64,000 nt of DNA. Source: Brevundimonas sp. (GTDB lineage Bacteria > Pseudomonadota > Alphaproteobacteria > Caulobacterales > Caulobacteraceae). Both the position numbers and the translations under genes were made by a program. The stretch covers positions 124,001-188,000 of the forward strand of contig NZ_JACESA010000001.1 in NCBI RefSeq assembly GCF_013912065.1, read 5' to 3'. The notes below the pieces were generated by a model. The model saw only the letters and a program-made list of their open reading frames with translations, was not told the origin of the DNA and searched no databases. Within the stretch, counting starts at the first letter, position 1, and each line of letters opens with the position of its first letter. Below are positions 62,030-64,000 of this stretch, piece by piece.

Positions 62030-62635
62030 CTAGAAGATCAGGGTGGCGATGCCGATCTCGCCGCCCGGCGTATAGCTGATCTGATAACCTGCAAGCAGGG
62101 CGAGTTGGTCTTCCGTTTCCGGCGAGAAGAACAGACCCACCGAAATCTTGCCGGCGGCGTCCAGGCCCATCCGCATTCCACCGCCCAGCTTCCAAGTATC
62201 GTAGCGAAGCCCATCGACGAAGCCTGCCCAGTTTCGCAGCGACTCGCATTTCAGCTCGACGACGATCTCGTCCGCCGCGGGGTTTTCGAAGGGATTGTTG
62301 ACCAGCAGATCGGCGCGTCCGCCGTCGGGATAGACGCGAGCCTCGCGTTCTATCCAGCTGTCCTCGACATTGGCGTTGATATAGCCGGCGATTTCGGCCT
62401 GCGCCCAGGCTTCCCATCCCCCTGCCAGAGGCCAGACCAGTCTTATTCTGTCGACGTTGGCGGCGGCCCATTGGGAGACCAGGGTCACGAAGTCTGCGGT
62501 TGACATCGGCATCTGAGCTATTCCTGATTTGAACGCCGCATGCGGCGACTGATCTGGGGGCGCTGTGGGTTCGGACCTGGTCTTTCGCCCGTCCGCGACG
62601 AGATGGAGCAGGGCCAGGCTGAGCATTCTCGTCAT
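62030..62635 (-). CDS. Hypothetical protein with a PD-(D/E)XK-like nuclease motif
   Basis: I do not recognise a named family. The 201-residue protein has a possible PD-(D/E)XK core: an Asp in GGRADLLVNNPF, followed about 15 residues later by the E-x-K in EIVVELKCES, which would place a metal-dependent nuclease-like site. The remainder alternates alpha and beta. The start is ATG 62635, with AAGGAG seven bases upstream; ATG 62512 is an alternative. It diverges from the reb genes with about 270 bases between. Confidence 0.6.
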   Translation of the reverse strand: MTRMLSLALLHLVADGRKTRSEPTAPPDQSPHAAFKSGIAQMPMSTADFVTLVSQWAAANVDRIRLVWPLAGGWEAWAQAEIAGYINANVEDSWIEREARVYPDGGRADLLVNNPFENPAADEIVVELKCESLRNWAGFVDGLRYDTWKLGGGMRMGLDAAGKISVGLFFSPETEDQLALLAGYQISYTPGGEIGIATLIF

Positions 62636-62905
62636 GAATGAACTCCTTGTTTTCACGGCCCTTCCGCGTCTCAGCCGCGTCCCGGAAGACTGCGACGCGT
62701 CGGATGGTGTCCCGAAGGCCAGACGCGGTCGGAAGGCGTCTGTGAAAGAGCGGGCAGCGTTTCGTTCACTCAAGGCGAGTTAAAAAATCAATCTGTAGTC
62801 GTTCACACAGGGGTGCGTCGGGCGTCATGGCTATCGGGGGTCGCCTTCAACGGGGCCATGCGACCTTCGAGCCACCGGCCTCAATCCAATGGAAGGAGAC
62901 AACTC

Positions 62906-63244
62906 ATGGCTATTCCGACACCCGTGAACGGTCAGATCACCGACGCCGTCACCCAGGCGAATGTGAAGGTCCTCGGCGACGCCCCGGCGATGGCCATGGG
63001 CGCGATCTACCAGTCGCTGGCCCACTCGACCGGCATTCTCTACGAAAACGCCACCTCGTCGCAGCAGCAACTGGCGATCGCCGCCCAGGCCGCGACCAAT
63101 CAGGGCGTGATCCAGATCTACAGCGTCGACACCATGGCCGGCGCCGTGGCGACCTCGAAGATCGCCCAGTCCGACACGCCCGACAACATGCTGGCCCTGC
63201 TGACCGCCCTGCGCGCCGTCGGACCGTCGGCCGCCGTCTCCTGA
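62906..63244 (+). CDS. RebB-family R-body protein, copy 1
   Basis: This 112-residue protein of the RebB family (R-body structural protein) has the strongly conserved core ITDAVTQANVKVLGDAPAMA and the Gln/Ala-rich helix SSQQQLAIAAQAATNQGV. There is no signal peptide and few charged residues apart from the core. Related proteins in Caedibacter and Azorhizobium polymerise into R-bodies, hollow ribbons that uncoil when pH drops. AAGGAG seven bases before the ATG suggests high expression. A near-copy follows after 32 bases. Confidence 0.88.
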   Translation: MAIPTPVNGQITDAVTQANVKVLGDAPAMAMGAIYQSLAHSTGILYENATSSQQQLAIAAQAATNQGVIQIYSVDTMAGAVATSKIAQSDTPDNMLALLTALRAVGPSAAVS

Positions 63245-63595
63245 CGCTCAACCCACAACAAAGAAGGACTTGAGACATGGCGCTTCCCACACCCGTCAAC
63301 GGCATGATCACCGACGCCGTCACCCAGGCCAACGTGAAGGTTCTGGGCGACGCTCCGGCTATGGCCATGGGCGCGATCTACCAGTCGCTGGCTCACTCGA
63401 CCGGCATTCTCTACGAAAACGCCGCCTCGTCGCAGCAGCAGCTGGCGATCGCCGCCCAGGCCGCGACCAACCAGGGCGTGATCCAGATCTACAGCGTCGA
63501 TACGATGGCCGGCGCCGTCGCGGCGAGCAAGATCAGCCAGTCGGACACGCCCGACAACCTGATGTCGCTGTTGACCGCCCTGCGGGCTACGGCGG
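62906..63595. repeat. Tandem duplication of the rebB coding sequence (371-base period)
   Basis: Copy 1 begins at 62906 and copy 2 at 63277. The two share about 92% of bases in their aligned coding cores. The proteins differ at only about eight of the first 100 residues and then diverge at the C-terminus. Confidence 0.9.
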
Positions 63596-63600
63596 TCTGA
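63277..63600 (+). CDS. RebB-family R-body protein, copy 2
   Basis: This 107-residue protein is almost the same as its upstream neighbour, with conservative changes near residues 3, 10, 50, 83 and 87 and a shorter C-terminus (TALRATAV). AAGGA lies eight bases before the ATG. It is probably co-transcribed with copy 1. Reb genes occur in clusters whose products co-polymerise into R-bodies, and the mix of nearly identical subunits fits such an assembly. Confidence 0.88.
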   Translation: MALPTPVNGMITDAVTQANVKVLGDAPAMAMGAIYQSLAHSTGILYENAASSQQQLAIAAQAATNQGVIQIYSVDTMAGAVAASKISQSDTPDNLMSLLTALRATAV

Positions 63601-63653
63601 CGCCGATGCGTTCGGCGACGCCAGCGCGCGTCGAACGGCCAGACCTTGACTGC

Positions 63654-63680
63654 CGCGGCGGGAGACTGGAGCCCGCCGCG
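63654..63680 (+). terminator. Hairpin between rebB copy 2 and the third reb-like gene
   Basis: The stem of nine pairs (63654-63662 with 63672-63680; arms CGCGGCGGG and CCCGCCGCG) encloses a nine-base loop. There is no T tract, so it may be an attenuator or an mRNA 3'-end stabiliser that raises the level of the two upstream transcripts over the third gene. Confidence 0.45.
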
Positions 63681-63700
63681 CCCACCCCTGGAGGACGACC

Positions 63701-64000
63701 GTGGCCGAGGCGAACGAAAAGAAGCCGGCGAGCGAAACCGGACGGACCAACCTCGGCGATTATGAGGAAGTCCTGAAGCTCGCCATGGAGCTGAGCCGGA
63801 ATCCGGCGACGGCGCCCATAGCGGAATCTGTGGCCAGCACCCTGCTGACCGTTATCGGTTCCGGCCCAAGCTTCGCCGCGATGCAGAGCCTGGTCGCCGC
63901 CAATCAGGCCAGCGGGATGATGTATCACAATGCGGTCGCCAACCAGCAGACCACCAACATCCTGGGCATGGTGGCGACCATGAACTGCGTACAGGCGCTG
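63701..64000 (+). CDS. RebB-like protein, longer form (3' end outside window)
   Basis: The frame starts with GTG 63701, with GGAGG (63690-63694) six bases upstream, and is open for 100 codons to the window edge. Residues 1-20 are charged and polar (AEANEKKPASETGRTNLGDY); the later part, SFAAMQSLVAANQASGMMYHNAVANQQ, matches the RebB family's Gln/Ala/Asn helix pattern. It may be a larger R-body subunit or accessory protein. Length and C-terminus are unknown. Confidence 0.75.
   Translation, partial: MAEANEKKPASETGRTNLGDYEEVLKLAMELSRNPATAPIAESVASTLLTVIGSGPSFAAMQSLVAANQASGMMYHNAVANQQTTNILGMVATMNCVQAL

Follow-up and report, generated by a model that had tools for sequence, protein, structure and literature searches.

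Expression of the reb genes of P. aeruginosa PA14 is stochastic, occurring in 0.26% of cells, and needs both FecI2 and RcgA, with FecI2 required for expression of rebP1 (PMC8322103). In Azorhizobium, reb control has been assigned to PraR and to RebR, a regulator of the Crp-Fnr type (PMC5527310). Across genomes, Raymann et al. described two reb synteny patterns that were mutually exclusive (PMC3583457). A 2026 survey of reb genes excluded neighbours that are not Reb proteins, and both Brevundimonas and Caulobacter go unmentioned in its main text (PMC13430693).

We analysed a window of 64,000 nucleotides from Brevundimonas sp. (the whole stretch, G000:C1:124001-188000), together with an overlapping region, L007 (C1:184001-204000), whose coordinates become window coordinates when 60000 is added. 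The right edge of the window falls within what we consider likely to be a sigma-switched R-body regulon, a single cassette between recO and dsbD that includes a co-regulated, nuclease-like protein, HypU. R-bodies are coiled ribbons of protein deployed by some bacteria against the cells that feed on them. The gene set and regulon found here are a new variant of an R-body family that is itself already known. Within the titles and abstract openings of open-licence PMC articles, a corpus with subscription journals mostly outside its scope, we found no description of a Brevundimonas R-body locus, its motif or HypU. The features of the locus and its flanks are:

recO: L007 1291-2022, plus strand, named from reading of its translation
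hypU: window 62030..62635 (L007 2030-2635), minus strand, 201 codons, divergent from reb1, start codon checked
promoter-like motif before hypU: window 62722..62746, minus strand, 86 nt upstream of the start codon
promoter-like motif before reb1: window 62802..62826, plus strand, 79 nt upstream of the start codon
reb1: window 62906..63244, plus strand, 112 aa, RebB family, PF11747 at 97.1 bits
reb2: window 63277..63600, plus strand, 107 aa, RebB family, PF11747 at 95.1 bits
reb3: window 63701..64000, plus strand, cut by the window edge (ends at L007:4066), 121 aa in total, PF11747 at 35.6 bits
orfX: L007 4063-4389, plus strand
reb4: L007 4415-4642, plus strand, PF11747 at 64.4 bits (profile search)
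reb5: L007 4646-4981, plus strand, PF11747 at 74.3 bits (profile search)
reb6: L007 5001-5234, plus strand, PF11747 at 75.8 bits (profile search)
reb7: L007 5266-5649, plus strand, Reb-like by profile comparison
orfA: L007 5672-6022, plus strand
orfB: L007 6041-6304, plus strand
orfC: L007 6301-6615, plus strand
motif before the sigma factor gene: L007 6660-6684
sigma factor gene: L007 6836-7597, TIGR02937 at 60.1 bits (cut-off 42.9)
dsbD-like gene: L007 7594-9324, minus strand
parC: L007 9472-11673, named from reading of its translation

A sequence-only reading had taken 62906-64000 for three consecutive RebB-type genes, the first two nearly identical. The three open reading frames are present, all score above the curated PF11747 (RebB) cut-off of 24 bits, and the Reb1 and Reb2 proteins share 92% identity over 104 aa. 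Further reb genes, anticipated beyond the window edge, are found there as reb4, reb5 and reb6, and with the search extended to the right six genes exceed the cut-off (35.6-97.1 bits). These six, held by one locus, are all the RebB matches of the genome in a whole-genome family search, which found none in 14 control genomes. Reb3 carries an N-terminal extension. Its score of 35.6 bits (cut-off 24) places it clearly within the family, though as a distant member; profile comparison gave a 91% probability of kinship with the clear Rebs, and 84% for Reb7. Proline-flanked QITD, KxxxD/E and QQQ motifs, as defined in the 2026 survey (PMC13430693), occur in reb1; in reb2 the QITD position reads MITD. 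Several reb genes lie side by side, an arrangement used to recognise RebB, or R-body, proteins. A phage-protein family of unknown function, PHROG 32040, also matches reb1 (1.2e-18). The stretch is a reb locus, as the earlier reading had it.

When genes of the locus and recO were compared against those of three other species, reb1 gave a dN of 0.008-0.021 with a dS of 0.34-0.39, and reb6 a dN of 0-0.006 with a dS of 0.23-0.43, both lower in dN than recO (0.027-0.042, with dS 0.48-0.54). Since dN in reb1 lies far below dS, the genes are under constraint as coding sequences and did not arise as random open frames. Reb1, Reb2 and Reb6 are nearly fixed at the protein level, with reb3 and reb5 less constrained. 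The fastest-evolving gene is orfB (dN 0.25-0.50, dS 0.70-0.99), and hypU, for which two comparisons were possible, gave dN 0.14-0.27 and dS 0.79-1.22. Homology, synteny and purifying selection together suggest that the organism may be able to make R-bodies, as the earlier reading had proposed. We regard it as distinctly improbable that the reb genes form some other helical polymer or inclusion in place of an extensible R-body, or that the locus is silent. R-body formation from reb genes was described as still to be proved for many taxa that carry them (PMC3583457), and the ribbon is here predicted from genes; yet the PF11747 matches in several paralogues, the QITD, KxxxD and QQQ motifs of reb1 and the strong purifying selection argue for the R-body.

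From reb1 to orfC the genes lie on one strand throughout, overlapping or no more than 100 bases apart, an arrangement expected of one operon. We therefore propose that this stretch would be expressed as one long operon, in which Reb1, Reb2 and Reb4-Reb6 would be the ribbon proteins, Reb3 and Reb7 distant Reb-like proteins, and OrfX, OrfA, OrfB and OrfC small proteins whose role is unassigned. No Pfam match over cut-off was found for orfX, reb7, orfA, orfB or orfC. OrfX had seemed plausible by eye as a Reb paralogue and was rejected when profile comparison gave a probability of 0.05%; the same approach found no kinship of OrfA, OrfB and OrfC with Reb or with each other. The predicted structure of OrfC (pLDDT 74, pTM 0.36) has two long helices, and neither supports nor excludes an anti-sigma reading. 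An Rfam scan of L007:1-10000 and a tRNA scan of L007 returned nothing.

A regulator had also been expected to the right of the window edge, and an ECF-type sigma factor, the likely regulator, is encoded there. The PA14 cluster (rebP1P2, rebD, rapA, rcgA, fecI2), compared here by its description and not by sequence, is alike in its RebB-family genes, its short Reb and its linked sigma factor. It differs in needing the transcription factor RcgA, a counterpart of which was not seen in the Brevundimonas locus. A Crp/Fnr-type gene is part of the PA14, Azorhizobium and Ruegeria loci, whereas none was seen within the Brevundimonas locus. Among plasmid records, the closest Reb (62.5% identity) is that of the Ruegeria pomeroyi megaplasmid, which also encodes a related sigma factor (8e-8) and places an exact or one-mismatch copy of the promoter-like motif before its reb genes. 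Unlike the Brevundimonas locus, it includes a gene of Crp/Fnr type as well as a 207-aa protein, the ORF of which reached a best E value of 0.91 against the Brevundimonas locus; its sigma and Crp/Fnr genes beside reb correspond to the 'Group 2' of Raymann et al. An Azospirillum plasmid has a reb locus with gene sizes as in their 'Group 1'. There, the ORF of a 116-aa protein next to reb matches reb7 (1.7e-8), but a 361-aa protein is present and the stretch read has no sigma gene. Caedibacter taeniospiralis (pKAP298) likewise encodes RebB-family proteins, with reb6 best matching its short third Reb (3.8e-18), but its reb genes are plasmid-borne in an endosymbiont; neither the sigma factor nor orfA-C is matched in the 3.9 kb of it that were read.

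Set against the two published patterns, the Brevundimonas locus has the linked sigma factor of Group 2 (HP2.3), with neither HP2.1/HP2.2 (about 205-220 aa) nor the Crp-type HP2.4 between reb1 and sigma; HypU, at 201 aa, is close in size to HP2.1/HP2.2. From Group 1 it has an HP1.2-like protein, Reb7, the Azospirillum ORF being taken as HP1.2 by its size and place, and between reb1 and sigma there is no gene of the size of HP1.1 (about 360 aa). By combining a sigma factor of Group 2 type with a reb7 of Group 1 type, the locus mixes two patterns called mutually exclusive, and relative to both it adds orfA, orfB, orfC and hypU.

The full locus is present in 8 of 131 Brevundimonas genomes, always in the same gene order. 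Relatives with a name are B. intermedia VKM B-1499 and Brevundimonas mediterranea DSM 14878. RebB was found in 11 of the 131, 10 of them over the cut-off: eight with the full locus, two with two reb genes, and one weak match. In wider samples RebB occurred in 28/398 genomes of the order and 11/246 of the class. Outside the genus the order has 23 carriers, of which 20 had their loci read (all except G174, G224 and G303); of the 10 other class carriers, all except G655 were read. The sole syntenic copy outside the genus, among the 20 order carriers read, belongs to a different genus of the family (G185, locus L076); it has the complete gene set in the same order, hypU included, between different flanks, and carries three reb1-type copies, one extra. 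An orthologue of reb1 is present in eight Brevundimonas genomes and in this one genome of another genus. Within the genus, the eight full-locus genomes are exactly those with orfC and a close sigma orthologue (E below 1e-60), and an orfC profile matched 0 of 384 other class genomes sampled, the overlap of that sample with the reb carriers being unchecked.

The locus is flanked by recO and dsbD in seven of the eight carriers, G004 having a different far flank. In 8 of 12 locus-less relatives recO and dsbD are directly adjacent, their matched coding stretches being 2-17 bases apart, and the remaining four have no dsbD match beside recO in the stretch examined; of the 12, 11 lack RebB and one, G063, carries two reb genes at another site. 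In a recO tree built from the eight carriers plus these 12 relatives, one change suffices to account for the carriers (weak support, 63/46), so that a single gain of the locus fits the tree without being proved by it. Three carriers (L036, L039, L040) have about 5.6 kb of extra DNA between orfC and sigma.

Several neighbouring arrangements were observed along the way. Between orfC and sigma, L040:8509-13377 holds autotransporter-like and glycosyltransferase-like genes, as judged from reading of the ORFs. Two further Brevundimonas loci, L042 and L043 (G063, G093), have two reb genes only, the other locus genes being unmatched in the stretch read. Five genomes from a further genus in the family (L084-L088; G212, G190, G222, G259, G451) encode a single longer Reb-containing ORF of about 167-187 aa, with no second RebB match in the genome. 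A phage or plasmid origin was considered and rejected: reb1 had no match in 50,697 phage records, one scan of viral contigs confirmed none, its matches among plasmids are rare (17 of 72,556 records), and orfC and reb7 matched none of these records.

Alignment of the regions upstream of reb1 and of sigma revealed a common promoter-like motif, TTCACR-N15-CGTC, whose two-part form we take to be that expected for an ECF sigma factor. It lies upstream of reb1 in 9/9 loci, at a distance of 77-95 nt from the start codon; upstream of sigma it is exact in eight of nine, the remaining locus (L035) having one mismatch (CGTT) with the 15-base spacer kept. As another locus, L039, has masked bases and its sigma gene was matched in two pieces, it was excluded from the reb3 and sigma alignments, and its sigma start was set by hand for the motif distances. 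The counts for reb1 and sigma are not independent, because the motif was derived from these same regions. The hypU sites, by comparison, were found after the motif had been fixed and are an independent test: the motif precedes hypU in all six loci that have the gene, 58-103 nt from its start, five of these loci being from one genus. Across the nine loci (164 kb) there are 24 exact matches, 23 of which precede reb1, sigma or hypU, against a chance expectation of 0.65 (mean of 60 shuffles of the same loci; maximum 3). A search of L007:2600-7700 found no promoters of the sigma-70 type.

At the scale of whole genomes the picture is different. STTCACR-N15-CGTC, a form not matched by the reb1 sites in L037, L038 and L041, where A precedes TTCAC, occurs 4-9 times per genome in the eight carriers and 3-11 times in 22 reb-less genomes. 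With such similar frequencies, the motif by itself does not single out a target, and most other genomic copies are likely due to chance. A control with the reversed pattern gave fewer copies than the pattern itself in most genomes, reb-less ones included. One candidate for a further regulon member, a pstS-like gene (L138, G000:C6 near 22045), was set aside as probably unrelated after its TTCACA-N15-CGTC copy proved near-identical in the reb-less G003; the copy is also present in G004, G023 and G096. Separately, an imperfect inverted repeat, AACCA-N4-TGGTT, was seen by eye over the start of the TTCAC box in several relatives (window 62790-62803). It is weak in the window itself and might be an activator or repressor site of the reb1 promoter.

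From these observations we propose that a dedicated ECF-type sigma factor would read three TTCACR-N15-CGTC promoters: its own, that of the operon and that of hypU. By reading its own promoter the sigma factor could set up positive feedback, and so an on/off subpopulation; once a threshold was crossed, feedback would lock the cell into making both ribbons and HypU. As in other bacteria, ribbons would remain coiled up to the moment when the cell was eaten by a grazer and acidified, and would then extend and break membranes. The sigma factor is a candidate reader of the motif, and the genus has many weaker sigma paralogues, so the motif might be read by a different regulator, with the sigma gene a mere passenger. 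We hold this to be very improbable: sigma orthologue, motif and reb occur together in 9/9 loci, and control loci in which no sigma gene was detected have no excess of the motif.

Those controls form part of a comparison with reb loci of other families. Six such loci together contain 7 exact copies of the motif, where shuffles give 0.43, and 11 copies of a looser form, with K for the first T, where shuffles give 0.83; the set was hand-picked after motif hits in these loci had been seen, and the looser form was defined on the tested loci themselves. One of the six, L185, has no sigma match on its 12.7-kb contig, and leaving it out lowers the totals to 6 exact and 9 loose; the sigma gene of another, L180, was pieced together by eye out of two ORFs. 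Among 29 control loci in which a sigma gene went undetected, one of which (L044) has a RebB match below threshold, there were 2 exact copies against 2.0 expected and 4 loose copies against 5.67. Exact or one-mismatch sites stand directly before reb in R. pomeroyi (L097), G726 (L185), G592 (L180) and G257 (L079). The other two of the six come from a single genus and bear a related sigma gene; L178 has no motif copy and L184 only one, inside the sigma gene, so that neither has a site before reb.

The earlier reading had placed any toxin to the right of the window edge. Instead, HypU, our strongest candidate for an effector or partner under the same control, is encoded on the left, inside the window and on the minus strand. 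Among 131 genus genomes, hypU is found in five, all reb carriers, and is always divergent from reb1; it is missing from three of the eight Brevundimonas full-locus carriers. G185 has it at the equivalent position, with 42% identity. Residues E40, D68 and E86-x-K88 (alignment numbering) are invariant in the six HypU homologues, an E ... D ... E-x-K arrangement like that of the PD-(D/E)XK core, and all six proteins begin with a short hydrophobic segment followed by a Pro-rich linker. HypU (queried as 62030-62638) had no Pfam, NCBIfam, PADLOC or PHROG match, and a PDB profile search gave none. As its single-sequence AlphaFold model (pLDDT 44) was too poor for a fold search, the fold assignment draws on the sequence motif only. 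HypU thus resembles the PD-(D/E)XK superfamily in the order of E, D and E-x-K, with no profile match and a putative fold, and we describe it as a PD-(D/E)XK-like protein and putative nuclease.

A HypU profile matched, among 372 class genomes, only its own genome and G592, also a reb carrier, in which the relative (L181) lies on a different contig from reb, adjoining a Crp/Fnr gene; about 750 bases upstream of it stands the motif with one mismatch. In G644, about 5.5 kb away from reb, there is a weak relative (L183; 6.7e-6 in a search of the ORFs of 17 loci). L183 lacks both the D and the E-x-K, while L181 retains D and E and has lost K. Relatives in two actinomycete records (E values of 3e-6 and 0.1) keep both D and E-x-K. 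In L097, the locus of R. pomeroyi, nothing matched the profile.

In the proposed regulon, HypU would be a partner or a payload released with the ribbon. As a payload, it would be a nuclease toxin freed into the grazer when the ribbon ruptures the vacuole. Several findings suit this role: the reb-type promoter motif before hypU in 6/6 loci, the restriction of the gene to reb carriers among the 131 genus genomes, the PD-(D/E)XK-like residues invariant in six homologues, and an N-terminal hydrophobic segment and Pro-rich linker that could serve as a docking tag. A precedent may exist in P. aeruginosa, where host delivery of the nuclease Ribocin has been proposed to go through R-bodies; Ribocin is, however, also delivered from E. 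coli without R-bodies (PMC13189344) and, as a member of the RNase A superfamily, is unlike HypU. Against a payload also stand the absence of hypU from three of the eight carriers, the degraded relatives in reb-bearing genomes (L183 without D and E-x-K, L181 without K), the relatives in the two actinomycete records, which may or may not be linked to reb, and the still putative nuclease activity; we judge the payload role unlikely. HypU might instead be a partner that helps to assemble, anchor or regulate the R-body, its fold nuclease-like and its activity beside the point. The family is kept in reb-bearing genomes despite loss of catalytic residues, and co-regulation suits a partner as well as a toxin; but all putative catalytic residues are kept in the six Caulobacteraceae members, and three carriers manage without the gene, so we put this forward tentatively, as somewhat unlikely.

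One locus from another family bears on the payload question. In L079, an additional exact motif lies on the opposite strand, 27 nt before a two-gene set (L079:3947-6122), an arrangement that speaks for a payload. The second gene of the set matches eCIS_core (66.1 bits, cut-off 22) and, below its cut-off of 29.6, the toxin-deaminase family BURPS668_1122 (28.4). For the first gene, which lacks a family match, a resemblance to EEP/DNase I-like enzymes was judged by eye from motifs, a reading for which Pfam, NCBIfam and PDB searches gave no support. Sigma-bearing R-body loci might then share one old motif that drives the ribbon together with an exchangeable, locus-specific enzyme, these enzymes being the sought R-body toxins: a PD-(D/E)XK-like nuclease in Caulobacteraceae and a deaminase-toxin-like two-gene set in another family. 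This general proposal seems quite unlikely to us. The R-body toxin is still described as unknown in the 2026 survey (PMC13430693), and, if the proposal were true, the motif would be a means of finding R-body toxins across bacteria.

As it stands, a motif that links reb, sigma and an adjacent enzyme-like gene nominates candidate payloads or partners in many genomes. With named, cultured Brevundimonas species among the carriers, the putative switch, the ribbon and its partner are open to deletion tests.
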